From NCBI RefSeq assembly GCF_031585635.1, contig NZ_CP134195.1, forward strand, positions 3,782,001 to 3,846,000: a DNA stretch of 64,000 bases. Direction: 5' to 3'. Origin of the DNA: Paraburkholderia sp. FT54. GTDB lineage: Bacteria; Pseudomonadota; Gammaproteobacteria; Burkholderiales; Burkholderiaceae. Shown piece after piece: positions 5,417-25,294 of this stretch (its first letter is position 1; every line of letters starts with the position of its first letter). The notes beneath the pieces are model-generated. The model worked only from the letters and a program-made list of their open reading frames with translations, searched no databases and was not told where the DNA came from. Position numbers and translations under genes: made by a program.

Positions 5417-7258
5417 ATGAACTTGTCCTTCGTGAAGCTGTTTTTGAAGCGCCCGGCTAGCGCATTCCGCGTACCGCACGCCGTGTCCGCTCGCCGGATG
5501 CTCGGCGCGGCGGCGCTCGCAGTCTGGGCGCTGGCTGCCGTGCCCGCGCACGCGCAGGATCCATCGCCGGACTCGGACGACACCTCGGTCACCCTGCCGG
5601 ACCCGCTCGGCCCGGCCTCGGCGGAAGACCAGAAGTCCCTGCCTGGCGTACCGCTGACGAGCCAGATCGTATTCCAGGTGCTCGCCGCCGAAGTTGCGCT
5701 GCAGCGCGACCAGCCGGCGCCCGCCTATCAGACCTACCTCGCCCTCGCGCGCGACACGCACGATCCACGCATGGCGCAGCGTGCCACGGAGATCGCGCTG
5801 GCCGCGCAGAGCCCGTCGGACGCTTTGGCCGCCGCCCAACTGTGGCAGCAGTATGCGCCGAACTCGGAACGCGCCGCGCAACTCGACGCGTCGCTGCTCG
5901 TGCTGTCCGGCAAACCTGATGATGCGGCACCGATCCTCGCGCGCGAACTCGCACGGGTGCCCGCCGACAATCGCGGCAGCGCGATTCTGGCGCTGCAGTT
6001 GCTGCTCTCGCGCGGCCCGAACCGGATTGGCGGCCTGCACGTGCTGCAGGATCTGCTGAAGAACGACCTGAACCGGCCCGAAGCACAACTGGCCATCGCA
6101 CGCCAGCAGCTCGTGTCCGACGACGCGCCGGGCGCGCGCAAGTCGCTCGAACAGGCGCTCACGCTCAAGCCCGACTATTTGCCGGCCGCGCTGATGCTCT
6201 CGCAAATGGGCCCGGAAGAGCGCAAGGAAGGCATCGCCTCGCTCGAAAAGTACGTACAGCAGAATCCGAAATCGCATGACGCGCGTCTCGCGCTCGCGCA
6301 GATGTATCTCGCCAGCGACCGTCTGGACGACGCCCAGAAGCAGTTCGAGATCATGCACAAGAACAACGCGAACGAACTGACGCCGCTCATGGCGCTCGCG
6401 CTGATCAAGATCCAGCAGAAGAATTTCAACGATGCGCAAACCTACCTGACCCAGTACGCGAGCCAGGCCGAAAAGACGCCGGGCGCCGATCCGGGCCAGG
6501 CCTATATCTACCTTGCGCAGTTGTCGCTCGAACAGAAGAACGAAGCGGCCGCGAGCGATTGGCTGAACAGGATTTCGCCGTCGAGCCAGCAATATGTGCC
6601 GGCGCAGATCACACGCGCGCAATTGCTCGCCAAGCAGGGCAAGGCCGACGACGCGCGCAAGCTGCTGGCTAACCTGCAGGCGCCCGACCCGCGCGACCAG
6701 GCGCTGATCGCACGCACCGACGCGGCGATCCTGTTCGACGCGAAGCGCTACCCGGAAGCGGAAACACGCCTGCAACAAGCCACGGCGCAGTTCCCCGACG
6801 ACCCCGATCTGACCTACGACTACGCGATGTCCGCCGAAAAAACCGGCCATTACGACGTCATGGAAGCGCAGTTGCGCAAGCTGATCCAGACACAGCCCGA
6901 CAATCCGCAAGCGTATAACGCGCTCGGCTACTCGCTGGCAGATCGCAATCAGCGCCTCGCCGAAGCGGACAAGCTGGTCGAGAAGGCATCCTCATTGGCG
7001 CCGAACGACGCGTTCATCCTGGACAGCGTCGGCTGGGTCAAATACCGGATGGGCGATACGTCGGACGCCATCAAGCTGCTGCGCAAAGCATATGACATGC
7101 AGCCGAACGCCGAGATCGGCGCGCACCTCGGCGAAGTGTTGTGGAAAACCGGCAATCAGGATCAGGCACGCGCTGCGTTCCGCGATGCGCGCAAGCTCGA
7201 ACCGGACAACGACACGCTTGTCAAAACGCTCCAACGTCTTCAGGTGAACGATCTTTGA
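5417..7258 (+). CDS. tetratricopeptide repeat protein with signal peptide
   Basis: A 613-residue exported TPR protein. The N-terminus has a basic patch, then a hydrophobic core ([19 protein letters not shown]) ending in an AHA cleavage site, so it is probably periplasmic. The rest is many degenerate 34-residue TPR helices (for example [32 protein letters not shown]), a protein-protein interaction scaffold. Start ATG at 5417 is chosen because the signal peptide begins there. Its stop overlaps the lolB start (TGATG at 7256-7260), so the two are translationally coupled; a link to lipoprotein sorting or envelope assembly is inferred from that only. Confidence 0.9.
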
Positions 7259-14398: not shown

Positions 14399-14639
14399 GC
14401 AGTTTCGATTACGTTGTTAAAGCGCCCGCGACGACGAAGGATGCGGGCCGGAGCGCCAACGTTACCACAGCGACGCCCGGCGTCCAGCCTGGCCATTCGG
14501 CCGATACGACGGTCGGCGGCGCGCCTGATAAAATGTGCGGCTTCCAGCGCCTTGCATCCCGCATCGCAACGCTGCCTGCCGCTCCCGCCGGCCTTGTGCC
14601 GGCTGCGCGCATCGGCGCGCGCTCTCACCATGCCAGATC

Positions 14640-15815
14640 ATGTTCAGCTTTTTCAAACGATTCAAGGGTTCGAAAGAGTCCGATAACGCGCCAGAAGAGT
14701 CGCAAACAGCGCCAGAAGGCTCTACGCTCGAAGCGGCCGTTCAGGCGCCTGCGCCCGTCGCGCCGGCTGCCCCGCGCCCGGCCGCTGCGCCGGTTCGCGT
14801 CGAGACGCCGCCCGTGGCCACCCCATCCGCGCTCGAGCCCGAACCCGATCCGGAAGCATTCGCGCTCGAAGAAACGGTCGAAATCGTCCCACCACCGCTG
14901 CCGGACGCGGGCGCGAAGCGTTCGTGGTTGACGCGACTGAAAACCGGCCTGTCGAAGACGAGTTCGAGCCTGACCGGCATTTTCGTCGGCACGAAGATCG
15001 ACGAAGACCTGTACGAAGAGCTCGAAACCGCGCTGCTGATGTCGGACGCGGGCGTCGACGCCACCGAATTCCTGCTCGAAGCGCTGCGCGAAAAAGTGCG
15101 CGCCGAGCGCCTCTACGACCCGCAGCAGGTCAAAACGGCGCTGCGCACGCTGCTGATCGAGCTGCTCAAGCCGCTGGAAAAATCGCTCATGCTCGGCCGC
15201 GCGCAGCCGCTCGTGATGATGATCGCCGGCGTCAACGGCGCGGGCAAGACTACCAGCATCGGTAAGCTCGCCAAGCATCTGCAGAGTTTCGACCAGTCGG
15301 TGCTGCTTGCCGCGGGCGACACGTTCCGCGCCGCCGCCCGAGAGCAACTCGCCATCTGGGGCCAGCGCAACAACGTGACCGTGGTATCGCAGGAAAGCGG
15401 CGATCCGGCGGCGGTGATCTTCGACGCCGTCGGCGCCGCGCGTGCGCGCAAGATCGACGTGATGATGGCGGACACGGCCGGCCGTCTGCCGACGCAATTG
15501 CATCTCATGGAAGAACTGCGCAAGGTGAAGCGCGTGATCGGCAAGGCGCAAGACGGCGCGCCGCACGAGGTGCTGCTGGTGATCGACGCCAACACCGGCC
15601 AGAACGCGCTCGCGCAAGTAAAGGCTTTCGACGACGCGCTCGGCCTCACCGGCCTGATCGTCACCAAACTCGACGGCACGGCGAAGGGCGGTATTCTGGC
15701 GGCGATCGCGCGGCAGCGTCCGATTCCGGTGTACTTCATCGGCGTCGGCGAAAAGGTCGAAGACTTGCAGCCGTTCAGCGCGGAAGAGTTTTCCGACGCG
15801 CTGCTGGGCGGCTGA
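14640..15815 (+). CDS. ftsY: signal recognition particle receptor FtsY
   Basis: GTPase that docks SRP-ribosome complexes at the membrane. The 391-residue protein begins MFSFFKRFKG, has an acidic Pro/Ala-rich A domain (about residues 10-90), then the NG domain with G1 GVNGAGKTTSIGKLA, DTFRAAAREQL, the DTAGR motif, TKLDGTAKGG and GVGEKVEDLQPF at the end. The ATG at 14640 is chosen over the longer open frame because it gives the canonical start. The mobile element begins 41 bases past the stop codon, so the native ftsY 3' flank is displaced. Confidence 0.96.
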   Translation: MFSFFKRFKGSKESDNAPEESQTAPEGSTLEAAVQAPAPVAPAAPRPAAAPVRVETPPVATPSALEPEPDPEAFALEETVEIVPPPLPDAGAKRSWLTRLKTGLSKTSSSLTGIFVGTKIDEDLYEELETALLMSDAGVDATEFLLEALREKVRAERLYDPQQVKTALRTLLIELLKPLEKSLMLGRAQPLVMMIAGVNGAGKTTSIGKLAKHLQSFDQSVLLAAGDTFRAAAREQLAIWGQRNNVTVVSQESGDPAAVIFDAVGAARARKIDVMMADTAGRLPTQLHLMEELRKVKRVIGKAQDGAPHEVLLVIDANTGQNALAQVKAFDDALGLTGLIVTKLDGTAKGGILAAIARQRPIPVYFIGVGEKVEDLQPFSAEEFSDALLGG

Positions 15816-15856: not shown

Positions 15857-15882
15857 AAAGGGCACTCCACGGTTATCTGGGG
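15857..15882 (+). repeat. left terminal inverted repeat of the GMT-like element
   Basis: The 26 bases starting AAAGGGCACTCC match the reverse complement of 23868-23893 at 20 of 26 positions, with the first 12 identical. Position relative to ftsY and the five-gene operon marks this as the left end of the mobile element. Confidence 0.75.
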
Positions 15883-15912
15883 TAGTTTTCTGCTAATAAT
15901 TCATCGCGCCTA

Positions 15913-15943
15913 AGCCCACTTGGACTCCTCAAGTGGGCTTTTT
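15913..15943 (+). terminator. Rho-independent terminator at the left end of the element
   Basis: AGCCCACTTG (15913-15922) pairs perfectly with CAAGTGGGCT (15930-15939), followed by TTTT. It lies inside the element, between the left repeat and the first element gene, so it would stop transcription entering from ftsY. Confidence 0.8.
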
Positions 15944-15955
15944 ACCACACATCAG

Positions 15956-15984
15956 TTGACGTTCTTGGGGGTAATATAAATACT
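15956..15984 (+). promoter_or_regulatory. candidate promoter of the element operon
   Basis: A -35-like TTGACG at 15956-15961 is followed by an AT-rich stretch containing TATAAA (15975-15980) and TAAATA (15977-15982). Spacing is 13-15 bases, or 17 to the weaker AATACT. It lies just downstream of the element's terminator and about 30 bases before the first gene. Confidence 0.45.
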
Positions 15985-16012
15985 ATTAACAAAACGATGC
16001 GGGGCGGAAAGG

Positions 16013-16492
16013 ATGGCCAGCGGCAAACAAATCGCAGAGCAGAATCTCCAACTCTTCCAAACTTGGCTGGCAAGCAAGACAGACGCCGATTTCCGGCAGA
16101 TGGTCAGTCGCGGGGTTCTGTCGCGAAAGGAGATGGCCAAAGAATGCGGGTTCGCCAAGTCCGCCCTCGACCAAAATCCACGCATCAAGGCGACACTCAA
16201 GGCGGTTGAAGACGGCTTGCGAGACCGTGGCATTCTGCCGGCACTCGAAGAAAAGCTGACGATTGACGGCGCTGCCCCGCCGATGCGCGAGATGGGCCAG
16301 CAACGCGCCGCACGTGATAGTGAGCGCCTAAAGCGGCTAGAGCTAGAGAACGCCAGCCTGCGTGCAGAGAAAGACGAGCTCAGGCGAGAAAACACCAACC
16401 TGCGCGCAGAGAAGGACGACCTCAAGCGTCAACTGGAAAGATATGCCGTTCTTGAGGAGGCCCTTTCCCTAACCGGGAGGCTGCCCCGATGA
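16013..16492 (+). CDS. VPA1267-like protein, coiled-coil
   Basis: A 159-residue protein resembling the VPA1267 family that accompanies GMT genes in Vibrio. The N-terminal half (FQTWLASKTDADFRQ, VSRGVLSRKEMAKECGFAKSAL) looks like a helix-turn-helix DNA-binding region. The C-terminal half (about residues 100-150) is a clear coiled coil with the repeated LRAEKDEL/LRAEKDDL heptads. AAAGG precedes the ATG at 16013. Its stop overlaps the helicase start (ATGA at 16489-16492). A role as DNA-binding accessory factor for recombination is inference; family assignment rests on my recognition of the sequence pattern. Confidence 0.75.
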   Translation: MASGKQIAEQNLQLFQTWLASKTDADFRQMVSRGVLSRKEMAKECGFAKSALDQNPRIKATLKAVEDGLRDRGILPALEEKLTIDGAAPPMREMGQQRAARDSERLKRLELENASLRAEKDELRRENTNLRAEKDDLKRQLERYAVLEEALSLTGRLPR

Positions 16493-18762
16493 GCGAGCAG
16501 ACTCTGCGGGTGTCCACCATTCGCAGCCAAAATCCGCAGGGAACTGGCGGCTGCATTTTTACTGGCGCGCCCATTGATGAACAAGGCAATGTGTTGGATG
16601 CGCGAGCCTACTTTGTTGTTCGAGCATCGAACCGGGTTCTAGACGGTACGCTTGTGCAGGTGGGCCAGTGGTGGCGAGTCGCCGGCGAGCCCAAGCATAA
16701 CGCCATTACCGTCAACGGCTACCATCTGAACGAGTGGCAAATCGCCCCCAGAGAGGCAGAACTGCTGCTCCCGTCAGGCGAGCACATCATTACGCTGATG
16801 GCCGAGAGCTCTGACTTCCAAGGCATTGGCCTGGTCAAGGCCCGCAAGCTCTGGGAGACATTTGGCAACGACTTGTACGACATTCTTGACCGAGGCGATG
16901 TCGCATCATTGGGCAAGGTACTGACCGAAGACAGTGCGCGGCAAGTTGTGGCTTCGTGGACATTGTACGGCAACACGCGCACGCTCCAGTGGCTACATGC
17001 CAAGGGTTTCGATAAGGCGACCGGCCGTAAGGTCCTTGCCTTCTTCGGGGCCCAGGCAGCGGAAAAGATTGAAGCGGACCCCTACCGCCTCTTGAGTTTC
17101 TGCGCGTCGTGGCAGCAAGTGGATAATCTCGCTCGCCATGATTTCGGCGTTGAAGAACATGATGTTCGGCGCCTGCAAGGGGCCATCGAAGAAAGCTGTT
17201 ATCGCCTGTTCGGCGACGGCCATACCATGGCCACGCGTCCCAATCTCGTTGAACGCTTGACCTCTGTCCTTGGCGAGCAAAATCGAACGTCCTCCTGGCG
17301 CAATCTAATATCGGACGCGCTATCACGAGGGTTGACGAACGGCAGCTATGTGATTGAGGCCGACAGTTGCGTCCGACCAATGGGGCCCTTTGTCATGGAA
17401 ACCGAGGTGGCGCTCGCAATCGCCGGCCGACTCCAGCATACAGATAGTTCACAGTTGTTGTCTGAGGATGAGGTTCTCACACTGTTGGCTGCTTACGAGG
17501 CACGTGAGAGCATCAGTCTCAACGACGAACAGCGCGCCGGCGCTCTAGAGGCTGCGGCACATGCGTTCGCGCTGATTACCGGCGGTGCGGGGGTCGGTAA
17601 GACAACCGTTTTAAAGGCGCTCTACGAAATCTACGACCGAGCCGGCCTTCGTATCTATCAAATGGCGTTGGCTGGCCGTGCCGCCAAACGCATGCAAGAG
17701 GCCACAGGTCGCCCTGCCTCTACGATTGCCAGTTTCCTCAGAAACGCAAAGCAAGACGAACTGGTCGCGCCCTGCGTCGTTGTGGTCGATGAAGCTTCAA
17801 TGGTCGACATCATTTCCATGAGTCGCCTCTGTGCTCTGCTTCCCCGTAATGTTCGCTTGTTGCTGGTGGGTGACCCACATCAGTTGATGCCGGTCGGCCC
17901 GGGACTCGTCCTTCATGCATTGGTTGAAACGCCGGGCATTCCCAATGTTGAACTCAAGGTCGTAAAGCGTTACGGCGGCGAGATTGCCGCTGCCGCATAC
18001 GCAATCCGTGACGGTGCTTGGCCGGATTTGCGGGATGTCGAATCAGCGCCCGTCGCGTTCGTTCCATGGTTGGCGCCCAGCGGACGAAGTTCTGAGCATT
18101 CGAGATGCACGCTCGCGGCGGAAATTCTAAGGCTCTATCTGCAAAGCCCCGCCAACACCCAGATACTGTCGTCGCGCCGCAATGGTAGTGACGGAACCAA
18201 GGGGCTTAACGCCCTGTGTCAGCAGCGGCTTACAGGAAATGCCAGGCCGCTCCTTACGTGGAGCATCGAACACGCAACGCATGTTCATACTGGCTTCCAT
18301 CAGGGCGACCTATTGCTCTGTACCCGCAACCTTTGGGAATGGGGCCTGCAGAACGGCTCGCTCGGAAAACTCGTGCAGATTGAAGACGAACCTCGCCTCC
18401 TCCAGAGCGATGATGGAGAGGAGATAGGCTATGCCTTAGCTTGGGTCGAGTGGGATGACGGAGAGCGCCGGCCAGTACTGGAAGTCATGCTTGATGACCT
18501 GGAACTCGGCTACGCCATCACCGTACACAAGGCACAAGGGTCGCAATGGGAACGCATTCTTGTGTCTGTCACTGGAAATAGATTACTCGACCGTACTCTA
18601 ATCTATACAGCCATCACGAGAGCTCAGCGGCAAGTAATACTAATTGGCGATGAAGCCGCCGCCAGACGGGCTGTCGAGAACTTGCCGAGAGCACATCGTC
18701 GACGAGTCGCATTAGGCTCTACTGTAGCGCGCCAGTTGGCCATTGCGGAGGCCCTGCCATGA
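16489..18762 (+). CDS. RecD2-like SF1B DNA helicase
   Basis: A 757-residue ATP-dependent helicase of the RecD2/TraA type. The N-terminal third has RecD2-like features, including ITLMAESSDFQGIGLVKARKLW, a helix-hairpin-helix-like segment. Helicase motifs follow: Walker A ITGGAGVGKTT at about residue 364, Walker B VVVVDEASMVD, motif III LLLVGDPHQLMPVGPG, the UvrD_C_2-type YAITVHKAQGSQWE and motif VI YTAITRAQRQV. It overlaps its neighbours by 4 bases on both sides, so it is produced with the recombinases. Processing of transposition or replication intermediates is a reasonable inference. Confidence 0.9.
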   Translation: MSEQTLRVSTIRSQNPQGTGGCIFTGAPIDEQGNVLDARAYFVVRASNRVLDGTLVQVGQWWRVAGEPKHNAITVNGYHLNEWQIAPREAELLLPSGEHIITLMAESSDFQGIGLVKARKLWETFGNDLYDILDRGDVASLGKVLTEDSARQVVASWTLYGNTRTLQWLHAKGFDKATGRKVLAFFGAQAAEKIEADPYRLLSFCASWQQVDNLARHDFGVEEHDVRRLQGAIEESCYRLFGDGHTMATRPNLVERLTSVLGEQNRTSSWRNLISDALSRGLTNGSYVIEADSCVRPMGPFVMETEVALAIAGRLQHTDSSQLLSEDEVLTLLAAYEARESISLNDEQRAGALEAAAHAFALITGGAGVGKTTVLKALYEIYDRAGLRIYQMALAGRAAKRMQEATGRPASTIASFLRNAKQDELVAPCVVVVDEASMVDIISMSRLCALLPRNVRLLLVGDPHQLMPVGPGLVLHALVETPGIPNVELKVVKRYGGEIAAAAYAIRDGAWPDLRDVESAPVAFVPWLAPSGRSSEHSRCTLAAEILRLYLQSPANTQILSSRRNGSDGTKGLNALCQQRLTGNARPLLTWSIEHATHVHTGFHQGDLLLCTRNLWEWGLQNGSLGKLVQIEDEPRLLQSDDGEEIGYALAWVEWDDGERRPVLEVMLDDLELGYAITVHKAQGSQWERILVSVTGNRLLDRTLIYTAITRAQRQVILIGDEAAARRAVENLPRAHRRRVALGSTVARQLAIAEALP

Positions 18763-20252
18763 GCCATGTCCGCGTCACCGCCTCTGTCATTACCGATGAG
18801 ACCGGTATCAAAAGCAAAATACCGGTGATTATGGTTGAGGAAGGGGGCAAGCTCAAGGAACTCCTGCCGCTGGTGGACTATCTGATTGCCAACTATCAGG
18901 CCAAGAGCCTAGCTTGGATGAACAAGCTGTGTCAGGTCGTGGAAATGCTTCTCGACTATATGGCAGTGAATCACTCACATTTCGAGAAACCGGAAGACTT
19001 GTTCGAGATGTTCACTCAACGCGTCTATGCCGGCACCATTGGCGAAGACGGTCGAGACCCAAGCAATCTGTACTGGTTCCCCAGGCGCACGAAGACTGCC
19101 AGACAATTGTTGACCACTCTGAGCGAGTTCTCGGACTGGATGCATAGAAAGTATGGTGCCACGCCCCTCAACCCTTGGCGCGAGGCTACCCTCTTCGAGC
19201 AACGGCTAAACTGGGCGGCGTTTATCAACAAGTCACAACGCTCGTTTCTCGGACACCTCGATAGCTACGCAGATGCCGCTTTAACCGCCAAGCAAGCTCG
19301 CAATACGCGCCAGCGTAGAGCTCCGACAGGCGACAGCGGGGAAACCAAGGCATTCCCGGATAGCCGATTCATGGAGCTCTTGTTTGTGGGATTTACTGTG
19401 CCCGGCAAGCAGGACAGCCCTGACATTGTCGAGCGTTACGATTGGCGTGGCATCTGTATCGCGATACTTTTGCATTGGGGCGGATTGCGTATCTCGGAGC
19501 CATTTCACCTCTGGGTCGGTGACGTTACGAACGACCCGCTGAAGCCGGACGAAGCTTGCGTCCGCGTCTACCACCCTATTGATGGGGTCGCTCCAAGAGA
19601 TTTTAAAGGTCCTGATGGGCGGTATATGCCTAATCGGGAGGCTTACCTTCGGGCTCGGCATCCGGGCTACCGCCCGCGCCACAAAGAGACAGGAAACCGC
19701 AGGGCCGGCTGGAAGAATCCGAGGCTGGACGATACGACACAGAACTTCATGCATGTTCATTGGCTTCCGTCTGGTATTGGCGGCCGCCTCTTTATGCAAG
19801 CGTGGAAGCTTTATATGTATCAGCGCATGCGCGCAAGGATTGGAGCAGACCAGCATCCATTCTTGTTCGTATCGTTTCGAGGCCCTCAGTACGGAGAGCC
19901 CTACACGATAGACGCGTATAGGGATGCGCATGCCCGGGCGGTCCGCCGCATCGGTCTGACGCCCGCGAAGATGAACGGCACGACCGAGCACGGCCATCGC
20001 CATGCCTATGGTCAGCGCGCCAGGCGCGGTGCCGTTGACGACATCGTCACCCAAAGGGGCTTGCATCACAAGTCCATCGAATCCCAAGCCGTGTACACCG
20101 AGCCGTCCATCGCGGAAGTCACTTCCGCACTGGAAAGCGCGACTGAAGCTCTGTCCTCGGGACAGTCCCTTCCAATGGTGCCAGACCTTGATGCATTGGG
20201 ATTGTCGGCGCGAAGAGAAAAATCCGTATTTCTAACGAAAAAGAGCAAATGA
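18759..20252 (+). CDS. gmtY: GmtY-like tyrosine recombinase
   Basis: A 497-residue site-specific recombinase with a complete tyrosine recombinase active site: Arg244 in GGLRISE, the HxxR pair His411/Arg414 in HGHRHAYGQ, His436/437 in HHKS, and the nucleophile Tyr446 in QAVYTEP. The N-terminal 200 residues include a SAM-like core-binding region. In GMT elements GmtY is the first gene of the trio. Start ATG at 18759 overlaps the helicase stop; the stop overlaps the gmtZ start. The gene name is by similarity of pattern and context, so I hold it with less certainty than the recombinase call. Confidence 0.85.
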   Translation: MSHVRVTASVITDETGIKSKIPVIMVEEGGKLKELLPLVDYLIANYQAKSLAWMNKLCQVVEMLLDYMAVNHSHFEKPEDLFEMFTQRVYAGTIGEDGRDPSNLYWFPRRTKTARQLLTTLSEFSDWMHRKYGATPLNPWREATLFEQRLNWAAFINKSQRSFLGHLDSYADAALTAKQARNTRQRRAPTGDSGETKAFPDSRFMELLFVGFTVPGKQDSPDIVERYDWRGICIAILLHWGGLRISEPFHLWVGDVTNDPLKPDEACVRVYHPIDGVAPRDFKGPDGRYMPNREAYLRARHPGYRPRHKETGNRRAGWKNPRLDDTTQNFMHVHWLPSGIGGRLFMQAWKLYMYQRMRARIGADQHPFLFVSFRGPQYGEPYTIDAYRDAHARAVRRIGLTPAKMNGTTEHGHRHAYGQRARRGAVDDIVTQRGLHHKSIESQAVYTEPSIAEVTSALESATEALSSGQSLPMVPDLDALGLSARREKSVFLTKKSK

Positions 20253-22852
20253 CGATGGCAGCCAAAAACGAGGGAGTCAAAAAAATGGTGCGCGGCGCGA
20301 CAATAGATACGGAGTGTCTCTACGCCACAGCGATTGACCCTAGGCTCGAGCAATGGAGAGTCTTGGCGGCAGAATGGCTCGCTACCATGAAAGAGGGAAA
20401 GGCTGCGGCAATGGAGTCCATGAAGATATTTCTAGTCGATTATGTACATGGACAGGCTCTGGACCGAGACCCTGCAAAATTTCTCAGCGCGAATAACTCG
20501 ACTCCCTGCCTGTACGACAGTTATTTCTCGCACTTTAAAACAAAAAAAGAAATAATAAAACGCTACGGTAAAATTACCGATTTTGTCAACTATGTTTTGA
20601 GAAACTATTTCTCGGTGGACGATGATAACGGGAATGCTATCATTTCCCCGGCTTTCCGAAATCCGATTCCACCACTTCCTGAATCGGTAGATGCCAAGCA
20701 TACAAACGGGAATAACAACGAGTCAAATAAACCCGTCCTGCCTCACTATTTCATCACGCGTCTGCGTCATCTGCTGTGCCCTGCCCAAGCAAAGAGCTTC
20801 GTTGATTGGAGTTGGGCACAATCAGCGGAAGAGAAGAGTGGTTGGTTTGTCGTGCCAGCCAACTGCATAGACAAGACCGACCCAGACTGCGTCTGGCGCT
20901 GTCGCACGACGTCACAGCACGAGCGAAACACGTACGGTTATGGTGAATCAGTGCATGAAATGTGGAACCCCGTAAGAGCCGTTGCGCTCTATTTGAAACT
21001 GCAATTGCCCCTACGAACCTTCCAGGTGCGGATGCTCGATAGCGGCGAGGCGGACACTCGTCGCTACGTGAAAGGGGAATGGGTCAAAAACAAAAACGTG
21101 TTGGCGAAAGGCAATGACAGAAATCCTTGTCGGCGAGGCGTATTCCGTCAAATGACAGATGACATCAAACATCGTCCGATGACGGGATTGTTTGTCAACA
21201 CCAACAAGACCGCCGACAGGGGGAAGGACGAGTGGAGCAAGGGCTATTCGATTCCCTGGGAGCACCACGAGGTGCTGTATTGGCTCGAAAAACTCAGAGA
21301 CTGGCAAGAAAAATACAATCCAATTTCCGCTCCCATGGCTTGGACGGATTTGGAGCGCAAGCATCTCGGTCACGCAAAGGCTGACGTGCAACTGAAAGCC
21401 ATGGGCGCCACCTGCTTCTTGTTTCGGGATGCCGCTGCCCAAGGCACAGACAAAGCAAAACCTATTGCTGTAACAAACACTCTTGACGCCCTTTGGTACA
21501 AGTTACTAGCAACCTTAGAGCACCAGTGCGAGGCGGAGCAGCTTCGCGACCTTGCTGACAAGCCATTGATATTCGTAAGGAAAGATACGCAAGCAACCAC
21601 CTATTATCCGCTGCACTCGCTGCGCGTCTCGCTCATTACAGCGTATGCGCTGGAAGGTGGTGTGCCGATGGCGATTCTGTCGAAATGCATCGCGGGCCAC
21701 GCAAGACTGGTGATGACGCTCTACTACACGAAAGCCGGAATTACCTATTGCACTGAGACCATGGATGCGGCCACCAAGCGCTTGATGGTGGATGAGCAGG
21801 AAAACTATGCGCGCTGGTTGAAGGACAAAACCTACCAGCAATTGGAAGCACACGGCGCGTATCAAGACCCGGCCGCGATTTCCGCGATGATGCTGGCGAT
21901 GCAGAACGGAGGGGCAAGCCTAACGAAGGATGACAAGGGTTTTTGCCCGAAGGGGGGATGGGGGTGCGATTCGGGTGGCGTTTATGTCAACGAGGATACT
22001 GGGAAGGTGACGTACGGCGAGGTGCCGGGTTATCCCCAGAAGAACTGTCCGCGATGCCGCTGGTTTTTCACTGGTCCGGCCTTTCTCGATGGGCTGAACA
22101 ATCACTGGAACAATATCCAGTTACAGATGGGCGATGTCGGTGAACGCATCGTGAAGCTCGAAGGCCAGATTGCCGCGTTGGAGGATGAACTATTCGAGTG
22201 TCAGGAAAATGGCCTGCTGTTCATGGAGCATGACAAGCTCAATACGCTGCGCAAAGTCCATCAAAGCGAGTATGAGAAGAACAACAAATATGCGGAAGAC
22301 TCTAGCGCCACCTTTCGACTCATAGCCAGGTGTACAGCCTTGGCCAAGAGTGGGCCGCAAGATGATGGCGTCCAGTTGGTTGCCGTTGGCGGTTTGAAGG
22401 ATGTGCGCGTCGCCGTCGAAGAATGCAGCAAGTTGCGCCAAGTACTCACAGCCGTTGCGGGCTCTACCGTGTACCCAGAGCACGACGTGAGCAAGGCTGT
22501 CCTGCAGGCTGGCAAGGCCTTTGACATGATGCTGGCGCGCAACGGAAAGGCGCCCGTTCTCTTCCGCCTCCCAGACGACGAATTCGCTTCCATGATTCAG
22601 CACATCACAAGATTGCTCATTGCTGAAGCGGGCAGCATCAAGGATGCACTGCCCTTCATTGAAGGGGCACGGAAGCTCGCAGAGCTTGGCCTCGACCTGA
22701 ACATGGAGCAATTGGCACAGGAGATGGCCTCCAGCCACGTCGTGCAATGGGATGCAGCGCAACGGTTCGGAAATTCGGAAAAGGGCCGACCCGCTTTGCC
22801 GTATGTCTCGCCAAAGGACGCCGAAGAGGAAGATGCCAATGTCGCCGAGTAA
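20249..22852 (+). CDS. gmtZ: GmtZ-like (VPA1269 family) large recombinase
   Basis: An 867-residue protein of the VPA1269/GmtZ type. A second, divergent tyrosine recombinase core is visible: LPLRTFQVR (Arg256 candidate), the HxxR pair His456-Arg459 in YPLHSLRVS, and GH484ARLVMTLYY with Tyr492/493 as likely nucleophile. A C-terminal cysteine pattern (C566, C573, C600, C603 in CPKGGWGC and CPRC) may bind zinc. A coiled-coil stretch lies at about residues 630-690. Its 5' end (20420-20700) is strikingly AT-rich compared with the chromosome. The start overlaps gmtY by 4 bases; an ATG two codons later is an alternative. Confidence 0.85.
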   Translation: MTMAAKNEGVKKMVRGATIDTECLYATAIDPRLEQWRVLAAEWLATMKEGKAAAMESMKIFLVDYVHGQALDRDPAKFLSANNSTPCLYDSYFSHFKTKKEIIKRYGKITDFVNYVLRNYFSVDDDNGNAIISPAFRNPIPPLPESVDAKHTNGNNNESNKPVLPHYFITRLRHLLCPAQAKSFVDWSWAQSAEEKSGWFVVPANCIDKTDPDCVWRCRTTSQHERNTYGYGESVHEMWNPVRAVALYLKLQLPLRTFQVRMLDSGEADTRRYVKGEWVKNKNVLAKGNDRNPCRRGVFRQMTDDIKHRPMTGLFVNTNKTADRGKDEWSKGYSIPWEHHEVLYWLEKLRDWQEKYNPISAPMAWTDLERKHLGHAKADVQLKAMGATCFLFRDAAAQGTDKAKPIAVTNTLDALWYKLLATLEHQCEAEQLRDLADKPLIFVRKDTQATTYYPLHSLRVSLITAYALEGGVPMAILSKCIAGHARLVMTLYYTKAGITYCTETMDAATKRLMVDEQENYARWLKDKTYQQLEAHGAYQDPAAISAMMLAMQNGGASLTKDDKGFCPKGGWGCDSGGVYVNEDTGKVTYGEVPGYPQKNCPRCRWFFTGPAFLDGLNNHWNNIQLQMGDVGERIVKLEGQIAALEDELFECQENGLLFMEHDKLNTLRKVHQSEYEKNNKYAEDSSATFRLIARCTALAKSGPQDDGVQLVAVGGLKDVRVAVEECSKLRQVLTAVAGSTVYPEHDVSKAVLQAGKAFDMMLARNGKAPVLFRLPDDEFASMIQHITRLLIAEAGSIKDALPFIEGARKLAELGLDLNMEQLAQEMASSHVVQWDAAQRFGNSEKGRPALPYVSPKDAEEEDANVAE

Positions 22853-23504
22853 TCTATCCCCCGAAGAGGTATTGGCTGCTTTGCAGCAGGATGCCACCAA
22901 GCGCACCCGACAATCGCTGGAGCTTATCCATACTTTGTGCAAGGAGCAGTATGAAGCGGGCAACCTCGATTTCTCAGTCGCGACTATTGGTCGACTCTCG
23001 GCGGCACGCGGAGGACCGTCCACCGGAGCAATCCACAATTCGACCGGAGAACACTATCGGGCATTGTTGAAGGCGTGGGCTAACCATGCCAACGGCGCCA
23101 CCCGGAAACCAGCTGTCAGGCCAGAGCCAGGTGTGGCCGACGACGTGTTGGCGATGATACCTGACGCTTCGGTGCGCGCTCTTGTGGGTAGCTTCCTTGC
23201 AGAGAATCGCAAACTCAGAGCTGAGAACACTTTGCTTAAGTCGCAAGCGCAAGTCGTAATCGACCGCCGGCCAAAATCCGCAATGTCGGAATCCACATCT
23301 CAGTCGGGCGTTCAAGTGCTACCAGCGCTGAGTACGCTGTTGCCGTTGGAGGTTGATGCGCTTCGCCACGCCCTCTCTGAGGAGTTGCTTGCCAAGATGG
23401 GCTGGAGGGTCGACGCGAAGACAGGTCGGGTATCGAAGGATGGACATGCCATCTTCAGAGCAGGGTTTGCCACCGCTATCAAGAAAGTCTTGAATGCGGT
23501 GTAG
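22839..23504 (+). CDS. gmtX: GmtX-like accessory protein
   Basis: A 221-residue protein resembling GmtX, the third member of the Gamma-Mobile-Trio. The N-terminal domain (SPEEVLAALQQDATKRTRQSL..SVATIGRLSAARGGPSTGAIHN) looks like a winged helix DNA-binding unit. A short coiled coil follows (FLAENRKLRAENTLLKSQ, about residues 110-130). The start ATG at 22839 lies inside the end of gmtZ, 9 bases after GAGG at 22826-22829; ATG 22833 is too close to that site. A small accessory protein after two tyrosine recombinases recalls TnpA/TnpB/TnpC of Tn554, which suggests a helper role. Confidence 0.8.
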   Translation: MSPSNLSPEEVLAALQQDATKRTRQSLELIHTLCKEQYEAGNLDFSVATIGRLSAARGGPSTGAIHNSTGEHYRALLKAWANHANGATRKPAVRPEPGVADDVLAMIPDASVRALVGSFLAENRKLRAENTLLKSQAQVVIDRRPKSAMSESTSQSGVQVLPALSTLLPLEVDALRHALSEELLAKMGWRVDAKTGRVSKDGHAIFRAGFATAIKKVLNAV

Positions 23505-23867
23505 GAAGTGCGGTCTGGATACTGGATTGCCGCCCACAAAAGTCTTGGAGCGAAGGGCAGTCAAGAGCACCGTGGAATAAATGGAAGGGGCCCACGCTTG
23601 CGTGGGAAGGATTCCGTTTATGCCGCGAAAGGCTCTTGACGGACCGGAGCGGCTAACGCTCGTGGCTGTCGGGGTGGGTTGCTGTTTAACCCGCCCCGGC
23701 TGCCCAACGGCGAGTGCGGGGTATCGGGAGCGAAGCTCCCGAGTTCGTAGTTCCCTAGAGCCAGTTACGTTCGAAATGGAGCCATGGAGATATTAGATAA
23801 AAATGTTGCATATAATATTTCGCAAGCCCTTCTGCAACTCAGTCACATCGTAATAGTAGAGTTTTTT
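23505..23867. other. structured non-coding region at the right end of the element
   Basis: No convincing gene is found in these 363 bases. They hold several strong inverted repeats. The largest, 23560-23640, pairs GTCAAGAGC with GCTCTTGAC, then CGTGGAATAAATGGAA with TTCCGTTTATGCCGCG (with G-T wobbles), capped by CCCACG-CTTG-CGTGGG. Then GAGCG/CGCTC (23647-23661), GGGGTGGGTT/AACCCGCCCC (23671-23697) and TCGGGAGC-GAA-GCTCCCGA (23724-23742). This may be a structured RNA or a recombination/cargo site; no function is known to me. Confidence 0.6.
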
Positions 23868-23893
23868 CCCTGAATAGCCTCGGAGTGCCCTTT
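23868..23893 (-). repeat. right terminal inverted repeat of the GMT-like element
   Basis: Read on the minus strand this starts AAAGGGCACTCC and matches the left repeat at 20 of 26 positions. It lies 30 bases before the maiA stop codon, so the element ends right at the edge of the convergent gene. Confidence 0.75.
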
Positions 23894-23922: not shown

Positions 23923-24567
23923 TTACTCTGCGTCCGGCTGCGCGCCCGGCGCCGCGCGCGCAAACGCGTCGAGTTGCATCGCGTGATCGTAGATGCGCTG
24001 AATGGTCGGAAACTTCGCTGTGTCGACCTTGAAGCGCTGCGCGTTGAACACCTGTGGAATCAGACAGGTGTCGGCAATGGTCGGCGTATCGCCGAAACAC
24101 AGCTTGCCAGTGCGCGAATCGGCCGCCAGATGCGTTTCGAACGTCGCGAAACCGGCTTCCACCCAGTGCCGGTACCAAGCGTCCTTGGCATAGTCGTCGA
24201 CGCCCAACGTGTGCTTCAGATACTTCAGCACACGCAGATTGTTCAGCGGATGAATCTCGCACGCCACCTGCAGCGCCAGCGCCCGCACGTACGCGCGATC
24301 GACCGGCGCCTTGGGCAAAAGCGGCGGCTCGGGATGCATTTCTTCCAGATACTCGATGATCGCGAGCGACTGCGGCATCACCTCATTGCCGTCGACGAAG
24401 GTCGGCACGATCCCGTCTGCATTCACCTTGCGGTACTCGGGCTTCAACTGCTCGCCGCCGTCGCGCACGAGGTGCACCGGCACGTAGTCGTACGGCAGAT
24501 TCTTCAAATTCAGCGCGATACGCACGCGATAGGACGCCGAACTACGGAAATAGCTGTAGAGCTTCAT
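23923..24567 (-). CDS. maiA: zeta-class glutathione transferase, maleylacetoacetate isomerase-like
   Basis: A 214-residue glutathione transferase of the zeta class. It begins MKLYSYFRSSASYRVRIALNL with the SSxSYRVRIAL glutathione-binding signature, has the PQSLAIIEYLEE motif, and HPLNNLRVLKYL in the helical domain. Such enzymes isomerise maleylacetoacetate (tyrosine breakdown) or maleylpyruvate (gentisate pathway). It follows an FAH-family hydrolase gene on the same strand, the expected partner in either pathway, so substrate is unresolved. The mobile element ends 30 bases downstream. Confidence 0.88.
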   Translation of the reverse strand: MKLYSYFRSSASYRVRIALNLKNLPYDYVPVHLVRDGGEQLKPEYRKVNADGIVPTFVDGNEVMPQSLAIIEYLEEMHPEPPLLPKAPVDRAYVRALALQVACEIHPLNNLRVLKYLKHTLGVDDYAKDAWYRHWVEAGFATFETHLAADSRTGKLCFGDTPTIADTCLIPQVFNAQRFKVDTAKFPTIQRIYDHAMQLDAFARAAPGAQPDAE

Positions 24568-24595
24568 GTTGTCTGTCTCCCCCAACCGGCCGCCG

Positions 24596-25294
24596 TCAGA
24601 CGACGCGCACGCTGAACTCGCCGAGCCCGTCCACGCCACCCTTCATCAGATCGCCCTGCACCACCGCGCCGACGCCTTCCGGCGTGCCGGTGAAGATCAG
24701 ATCGCCAGGTTGCAGTTCGAACAGCGTCGACAGATAAGCGATCGTCTCGGCCACCGACCAGATCAACTGCGACACGTCCGAGCTTTGCTTCTCCTCGCCG
24801 TTCACCGACAACCAGATCGTGCCTTTGTCGACATGGCCGACCGTCGCCGCCGGATGAATAGGACCGAGCGGCGCCGAGTGATCGAAGCCCTTCGCGGTAT
24901 CCCAGGGACGGCCCAGCTTCTTCGCTTCGGCCTGCAGATCGCGGCGCGTCATGTCGAGACCGAGCGCATACCCGTAGACGTGGCCAAGCGCGCTTTCGGC
25001 TGGAATGTTCTTGCCGCCCTTGCCGATCGCCGCCACCATTTCCATTTCGAAATGGACGTTTTTCGACTGCGACGGATACGGAAACTCGCCGGTGGCGCCG
25101 GGCGCGACGTACAGCACGGCATCGGCCGGCTTGGTAAAGAAGAACGGCGGCTCGCGGTCGGGATCGTGCCCCATCTCGCGCGCGTGCGCCTCGTAGTTGC
25201 GGCCCACACAGTAGATGCGACGCACCGCGAACTGCTCGTTGGACCCCACGACCGGCACCGCGACCACCGGTGCGGGTGCAAATACGTAACTCAT
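24596..25294 (-). CDS. fumarylacetoacetate hydrolase family protein
   Basis: A 232-residue FAH-fold hydrolase of the short type. It has [30 protein letters not shown], the metal-binding EFPYPSQ...[11 protein letters not shown], and the terminal [15 protein letters not shown] motif. Short FAH proteins of this kind act on fumarylpyruvate or related dicarboxylic keto acids. It is separated from the zeta glutathione transferase by only 28 bases, so the pair likely isomerises and then cleaves a ring-cleavage product. ATG at 25294 gives [10 protein letters not shown], the family start. Confidence 0.88.

Follow-up and report, generated by a model that had tools for sequence, protein, structure and literature searches.

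Between ftsY and maiA in the soil bacterium Paraburkholderia sp. FT54 lies a compact mobile element of the Gamma-Mobile-Trio (GMT) kind, which was studied in a window of 64,000 nucleotides (NCBI RefSeq assembly GCF_031585635.1, contig NZ_CP134195.1, positions 3,782,001 to 3,846,000 of the forward strand); all positions below are those of this window. The list of open reading frames (ORFs) gives five overlapping genes on the same strand, 16013–23504 (+), with ftsY and maiA as neighbours, and the G+C content is about 0.62–0.66 near the flanks vs about 0.50–0.59 within the element. GMT elements were reportedly described by Mahata et al. in Nature Microbiology in 2024. Defence or offence cargo is typical of them without being defining. 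The locus is laid out as follows, attL and attR being the left and right junctions with host DNA:

14535–15815 (+), ftsY, left flank of the element
15857–15866 (+), 5' arm of the split ftsY/maiA terminator hairpin of the host (empty relatives have hairpins whose stem is identical or similar)
15867–15872 (+), left hexamer CCACGG, kept at attL and presumably the centre of the target hairpin
15873–23877 (+), bare GMT element, 8005 bp (limit of homology and comparison of copies)
15911–15941 (+), internal intrinsic terminator, 11 pairs and a loop of 7, 38 nt inside the left end
15956–15984 (+), promoter-like site TTGACG-17-AATACT upstream of the operon (pattern match alone)
16013–16492 (+), VPA1267-family protein, NF040697 (ORF and NCBIfam profile)
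16489–18762 (+), RecD2-like SF1B helicase (NCBIfam, under the equivalog cut-off)
18759–20252 (+), GmtY, tyrosine recombinase of ordinary size (NCBIfam and conserved residues)
20249–22852 (+), GmtZ, large recombinase with Integrase_2, PF13009 (NCBIfam, Pfam)
22752–23504 (+), GmtX (NCBIfam; longest frame)
23558–23745 (+), core 23560–23640, conserved structured-RNA-like block between gmtX and the right end, not specific to GMT
23878–23883 (+), right hexamer CCTCGG at attR; by analogy with the copies in P. elongata, Paraburkholderia BCC1884, eno and IncHI2, its expected origin is the previous site
23884–23893 (+), 3' arm of the split terminator hairpin of the host (repeat and empty relatives)
23923–24639 (-), maiA, right flank of the element

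The first-pass annotation had recognized a GMT element from protein patterns and gene order, and this assignment is borne out by a search with profile hidden Markov models. GmtX (219 bits vs an NCBIfam equivalog cut-off of 40), GmtY (509 vs 340), GmtZ (920 vs 600) and the VPA1267-family protein (184 vs 90) all score above their cut-offs. The naming of the five coupled genes is thereby confirmed for these four, while the helicase gene is RecD2-like with 347 bits and falls under the NCBIfam cut-off of 500. In GmtY, residues R244, K319, H411, R414, H437, and Y446 are each kept in 97–100% of 64 aligned sequences; in GmtZ, R256, H456-x-x-R459, H484, Y492/Y493, C566, C573, C600, and C603 are invariant in 12 of 12, and the GmtZ profile has a weak XerC-like recombinase match across 428–501 (E 0.018). 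The pattern suggests that the conserved residues of the two proteins make up their catalytic sets. gmtY, gmtZ, and gmtX are adjacent on one strand (18759–23504, +). In its longest frame gmtX shares 101 bp with gmtZ (22752–22852); the real start is probably later because the family match begins at residue 38. The AlphaFold2 model of GmtX is weak (mean predicted local distance difference test score 69.7), with an N-terminal helical region, a long helix and a small C-terminal domain, and a PDB search with it gave no match at E ≤ 0.001. Downstream of gmtX, up to the right end of the element, no ORF of at least 80 aa starts on the + strand, which agrees, as far as ORFs of that strand are concerned, with an element without evident protein cargo. 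The promoter-like pattern upstream of the operon was found once against 0.2 expected.

Insertion is evident from comparison with relatives. A search for the ftsY flank in 59 genomes including that of FT54 gave a match in 58, and 29 relatives' loci, all from the same genus, were compared. In one (L009) the sequence ends at a contig end; in the 28 with both flanks readable maiA closely follows ftsY with no element between. The same genes at this locus throughout Paraburkholderia, which the first-pass annotation had named as evidence against its reading, are not what these relatives show. An inverted repeat that it had taken for the terminal inverted repeats of the element does exist (15857–15876/23874–23893, 85% matching), and the presence of complementary sequence at both ends is what speaks for such a reading. 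Nevertheless, element ends of this kind are ruled out for practical purposes. In element-free relatives such as L006, L007, L011, L015, and L018 the two repeats adjoin each other and form a single hairpin, for instance GGGCACTC-CTCG-GAGTGCCC in L015 and GGGCACTC-CGCG-GAGTGCCC in L018, and the repeats are therefore the arms of a host terminator hairpin between ftsY and maiA. Furthermore, stems differ at other copies, and the homology of the FT54 copy with the one in P. elongata (L056), which is 81%, is confined to 15872–23876 and stops inside the repeats. The element is accordingly placed at 15873–23877, with the imperfect ends TTATCTGGGG (left) and CCCTGAATAG (right), and the left repeat noted earlier consists of the host 5' arm followed by the first bases of the core. 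A strict terminator scan (perfect stem of at least 6, loop of 3–8, TTTT near the stem end) detects a terminator-like hairpin in 15 of the 28 empty ftsY-maiA intervals.

The two closest copies have the same five genes and split two other terminators, each being flanked by a stem different from that in the window. The copy in P. elongata (GmtY 84% identical) is 7964 bp long, and its empty site in the relative L145 is the hairpin GGCCTG-CAAATG-CAGGCC; the copy in Paraburkholderia BCC1884 (L057, GmtY 74% identical) is 7936 bp long, with the hairpin GGAGC-CTTCGG-GCTCC as its empty site in the relative L170. The first has the hexamer CAAATG on its left and CGTTTG on its right, the second CTGCGG on the left, one base off the L170 centre, and CCCCAG on the right.

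The same arrangement is seen in copies of a gamma type from E. coli and plasmids. With the GmtZ gene of an IncC copy as query, 5 of 5426 E. coli genomes gave a match. In E. coli TW05614 the element splits the eno terminator, for which the empty site in K-12 is ATGCCAGC-CCGGAG-GCTGGCAT, and the copy has CCGGAG on the left and AAGTAT on the right. In E. coli S1-CAM-01-A it splits the cspE/crcB terminator and keeps the GATTAA of the target on the left. An IncHI2 plasmid copy splits GCCAGC-AAGTAT-GCTGGC, with AAGTAT on the left and ACAAAG on the right. Split stems are also found at the flanks of the copies in the IncC plasmids pKAZ1 and pKAZ2 and in the Vibrio plasmid pL280; another IncC plasmid (L197) has an intact terminator at the pKAZ1 site, with the centre CTTCGA, one base apart from the left hexamer CTTCGG of pKAZ1. 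The IncHI2 and eno copies (L196 and L199) share annotated cargo, i.e., a multiubiquitin-domain protein, a ThiF-type adenylyltransferase and DUF6527, possibly a defence operon.

Stems were found in all 10 copies of the window's and gamma types for which both ends were placed, with lengths of 6, 7, 8, 10, 12 (five times) or 14 bp when a core of 3–9 nt was allowed; as a control, 11 of 272 mismatched pairings from a 17-site table, not broken down further, had stems of at least 6. In the exact 6+6 register at least 6 bp are formed in 8 of the 10 copies (L205, which has a mismatch, gives 1 and L207 gives 5), and the 3 mismatched pairings out of 90 with a stem of 6 are all between related sites (eno/IncHI2 both ways and L207/L206). 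By comparison, a terminator-like hairpin centre lies within 3 bp of 86 of 113,533 sampled positions (0.08%), the sample consisting of the window and of Burkholderiales loci with GMT elements among them. The strict scan passes 7 of 10 rejoined targets, including that of the window, and 5 of 6 real empty sites; it misses L056/L145, where the T run is counted within the stem, L205 with its one mismatch, and L206, which has no TTTT. A blind scan for stem, core and repeat over whole flanks proved too permissive: in the three loci scanned the true pair scored highest, but it was tied by chance pairs in two of them. Terminators are non-essential intergenic DNA, and it could be argued that the elements insert nearly at random and that purifying selection spares only the harmless insertions in terminators. 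This is very unlikely, as the ten copies lie in or a few bases from a hairpin centre and the background frequency of such positions is far below the neutral intergenic share.

The hexamers next to the element ends bear comparison with those described for other mobile elements. The left hexamer equals the centre of the empty site in four copies (P. elongata, eno, IncHI2, and cspE/crcB) and is one base off in two (BCC1884 and pKAZ1), for which the empty site comes from another strain or species. The right hexamer of the eno copy, AAGTAT, is the left hexamer of the IncHI2 copy, the sole such match among the ten copies, and the two elements are 98.7% and 97.9% identical over two aligned parts. According to an excerpt of PMC10214605, SE elements (strand-biased circularizing elements) and Tn554 copy the 6 bp that border the donor on its left to the right side of the new site, and the eno/IncHI2 pair matches this SE/Tn554 rule. 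Both parts of that rule, i.e., the target centre at attL and the donor's left 6 bp at attR, hold for this one related pair, and the attL part alone holds also for the P. elongata and cspE/crcB copies. The left hexamer is that of the target, while the right one appears to be brought in. The donor of the eno copy need not be this IncHI2 plasmid, merely a copy with the same left hexamer. The outer bases pair in 9 of 10 left hexamers; in the right hexamers they pair in 5 of 10 by Watson-Crick rules (P 0.078) and in 8 of 10 with G-T pairs included (P 0.008), which weakly suggests that right hexamers too derive from hairpin centres. By analogy, the hexamers of the FT54 copy would have the same origins.

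A further feature fits with insertion into terminators. In 16 of 21 copies a rightward intrinsic terminator is found within the element close to its left end, a count made with no shuffled control and with related copies counted apart. It lies 33–38 nt inside in 14 copies and 56–57 nt inside in two, and is present in three Bacillota copies (L060–L062), boundaries in Bacillota having been read approximately; among the 21 it was not found in L057, L059, L063, L076, and L087. The general terminator scan omits the internal terminator of the window, probably since the stem consumes part of the T run. This terminator may stop transcription from the host gene whose own terminator was split, or shield the operon.

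Taken together, these data lead us to propose, with a probability of roughly 0.84, that a bare GMT element has inserted in the centre of the ftsY/maiA terminator hairpin, and that such elements move in the manner of SE elements and Tn554 and target terminator hairpins. Several observations weigh against this proposal. The ten copies, like the internal terminators, are not fully independent, and many other loci were dropped for lack of identified ends: the ten were chosen because their ends could be found, those of the BCC1884 copy having first been spotted via the repeat and then confirmed by empty sites. Left out for this reason were GMT loci L065–L075, most of L078–L095, most of L125–L144, and L208–L211, and for L059, L195, and L204 one end only was identified. 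The strict scan fails in 13 of the 28 empty ftsY-maiA intervals; some of these, e.g., L015, have a hairpin that lacks the T run required by the scan, and in L013, L026, and L030 none is seen by eye. The rejoined site of the window itself, with only three T after the stem, fails the scan applied to the relatives' intervals and passes the version used for the background, which also accepts an A run before the 5' arm. The register of the cspE/crcB copy is shifted by one base. Over 40 nt, the left flank of the PROV224 copy (L207) is identical to that on the right of L206 read in reverse orientation, so that this site may be rearranged and not independent of L206. Finally, neither a circle nor transposition has been observed.

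A third type of element, from Burkholderiaceae and with the ends TATTCCCCCC, is mixed in its target use and likewise counts against a general rule. Contig 5 of G354 has two identical 5409-bp bare copies (L136 and L137), and terminators form only when halves are swapped between the copies, as if a cointegrate had arisen by homologous recombination via the shared element, or the contig had been misassembled; in the stem scan these terminators score 14 bp and 3 bp, the latter (T1) owing to a core that exceeds the length limit of the scan. L076 (9068–14449) and L077 (9050–15722, oriented) are 99% identical and come from two species, where they lie in opposite orientations at the palindrome CAACATGTTG of the same host sequence, i.e., two insertions in one host sequence. 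In L081 the repeat is longer but imperfect and lacks a T run, L087 has no clear repeat, and neither does L058, which is nearer to the window's type. At 7098–7112 of L059 a GMT copy interrupts a gdh-like gene. A second, divergent gdh-like (glutamate-dehydrogenase-like) gene lies beyond gmtX in L059, from about 15960, an arrangement reminiscent of Tn6283, whose map shows a bcp homologue (excerpt of PMC5991714). Given these exceptions, hairpin targeting holds for two types, and the third may use palindromes more loosely.

The first-pass annotation drew attention to the betaproteobacterial host, which is not unusual. Of 299 genomes sampled across the family of the host, 15, FT54 included, have GmtY above the NCBIfam cut-off, and copies with 48–69% identity are known from Bacillota and from a Nitrospiraceae metagenome-assembled genome. 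Within the genus, GmtY relatives (E ≤ 1e-60) are found in 20 of 144 genomes, and the close type (identity at least 74%) in 3 of 144 including that of FT54, at three loci; a phage collection gave no GmtY match at E ≤ 1e-5. The suggestion that bare copies define the minimal unit holds: there are three bare five-gene copies of 7.9–8.0 kb, and two identical 5.4-kb copies in which, of the five genes searched for, only gmtY, gmtZ, and gmtX are present. Two contigs, L063 and L135, are 5415 and 5358 bp long and start and end at or near the element ends, such as a repeated or circular form might give. It is conceivable that the FT54 copy is a decayed, fixed remnant rather than a mobile unit, as neither a circle nor a second copy was observed and its genome has a single GmtY above the cut-off. 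We regard this as unlikely, since the five reading frames are open, the recombinase residues are intact, and related copies are found at other loci.

The structured-RNA-like block between gmtX and the right end is conserved in L056, L057, and L126 and folds far better than shuffled sequences (z -7.4). In an alignment of eight sequences, four of them plasmid-borne and with L213–L216 among the motif loci, 12 of 29 predicted pairs are altered at both positions in one sequence or more; the motif has a covarying outer helix and near-invariant GTGGAATAAATGG / TTATGCCGCGAAAG strands. An Rfam search gave nothing better than one match at chance level (E 0.6). The block was considered as a part of the GMT core and rejected as such, as a strong match occurs in just 4 of 51 sources, some of which stop short of the right end of the element, and as it is also found in plasmids and genomes where no GMT element was found. 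A model of the block finds it in 16 of 300 Burkholderiales genomes, FT54 included, five with more than one copy; the motif is also present in 14 plasmid records of several classes. It is a finding separate from the GMT element.

GMT elements as such are already known, and what is added here are their ends, the target rule and the link to movement of the SE/Tn554 type. The FT54 copy shares with them GmtX, GmtY, and GmtZ as well as the VPA1267-family protein and the RecD2-like helicase, and differs in being bare and betaproteobacterial. Its gene order is VPA1267-helicase-gmtY-gmtZ-gmtX, whereas gamma-type copies have gmtY-gmtZ-gmtX first and the VPA1267 and helicase genes after. The proposed targeting is similar to integron attC recombination in that a tyrosine recombinase acts at a hairpin-forming site; attC, in contrast, is recombined as a single strand with conserved features. 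Tn7 at attTn7 also lands in a terminator region, that of glmS, but employs a DDE-type transposase and reads its target in the glmS gene. A literature search, whose scope did not include the founding GMT paper, returned no report on GMT target sites among the matches listed. A 2025 report mentions one Vibrio isolate with two identical GMT islands in different regions (PMC12039261), and GMT is also named in PMC12715929, PMC12259885, and PMC11888443.

The likeness to SE elements, as far as the excerpt of PMC10214605 describes them, extends to one ordinary and one large tyrosine recombinase, a small accessory protein, imperfect ends, and the 6 bp of target at attL and of the donor's left side at attR. 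The SE core, on the other hand, has four genes, intA-tfp-intB-srap, including Tfp, while gmtY overlaps gmtZ without an intervening gene; these are layouts and not proteins that are compared. Tn6283 is reported to occupy a site in bcp that lacks an inverted repeat (PMC5991714), and SE-6945 to lie immediately downstream of the termination site of yjjN rather than in its loop (PMC9345347), so that the SE reports, in their excerpted form, do not imply targeting of a hairpin centre. The words 'terminator', 'hairpin' and 'palindrom' are absent from the main texts of PMC5991714, PMC9345347, and PMC5385486, as are 'terminator' and 'palindrom' from PMC10214605, where 'hairpin' was not looked for. Tn554 has the recombinases TnpA and TnpB, a small TnpC and a 6-bp carry-over, and differs in its hosts and in that hairpin targets go unmentioned in the excerpt; this likeness is one of description rather than of compared proteins (PMC10214605). 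No Tn554 model was among the matches listed in general profile scans of the element proteins, with no direct comparison made. GInts and RIT elements are also recombinase operons that move genomic islands, and, compared by their descriptions in excerpts, differ in having ginABCD or three recombinases (PMC5385486; PMC10214605).

The following series of events may be envisaged. GmtY and GmtZ would act as a tyrosine recombinase pair with GmtX as an accessory protein, and would, possibly by a copy-out route, form a circle that includes the 6 bp bordering the donor copy on its left. The circle would be inserted between the arms of a hairpin-forming inverted repeat, preferably a terminator, and would split the stem, with the central 6 bp of the target remaining to the left of the element and the 6 bp that were imported coming to lie on its right. 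The terminator within the left end of the element would then take over termination, and landing would thus be nearly harmless. How the hairpin is recognized can be pictured in two ways. It is tempting to speculate that the GMT recombinases choose by shape, i.e., a hairpin of any stem sequence, as an extruded cruciform or single-stranded terminator DNA, with insertion in the centre and their own terminator as replacement; we put this forward tentatively. With equal reserve, it could be that the recombinases read sequence motifs, such as G+C-rich arms and C..G closing pairs, that are merely common in terminators. The GCCAGC/GCTGGC that the eno and IncHI2 sites have in common, and the pairing of the first and last bases of the left hexamer in nearly all copies, would agree with such motifs, while the wide variation of stems among copies of one type would not.

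For at least two types of GMT elements the rule that an insertion splits a terminator hairpin at its centre locates the exact ends and landing sites. It explains how they come to lie beside housekeeping genes without breaking them, and ties GMT to movement of the SE/Tn554 type. As the right hexamer points to the previous site, the history of GMT elements becomes readable, the copy in the E. coli eno terminator having apparently come from an IncHI2-type site. If hairpins are indeed recognized by shape, intrinsic terminators would be a near-universal landing site for defence islands, and the right hexamer would be the previous address of each.

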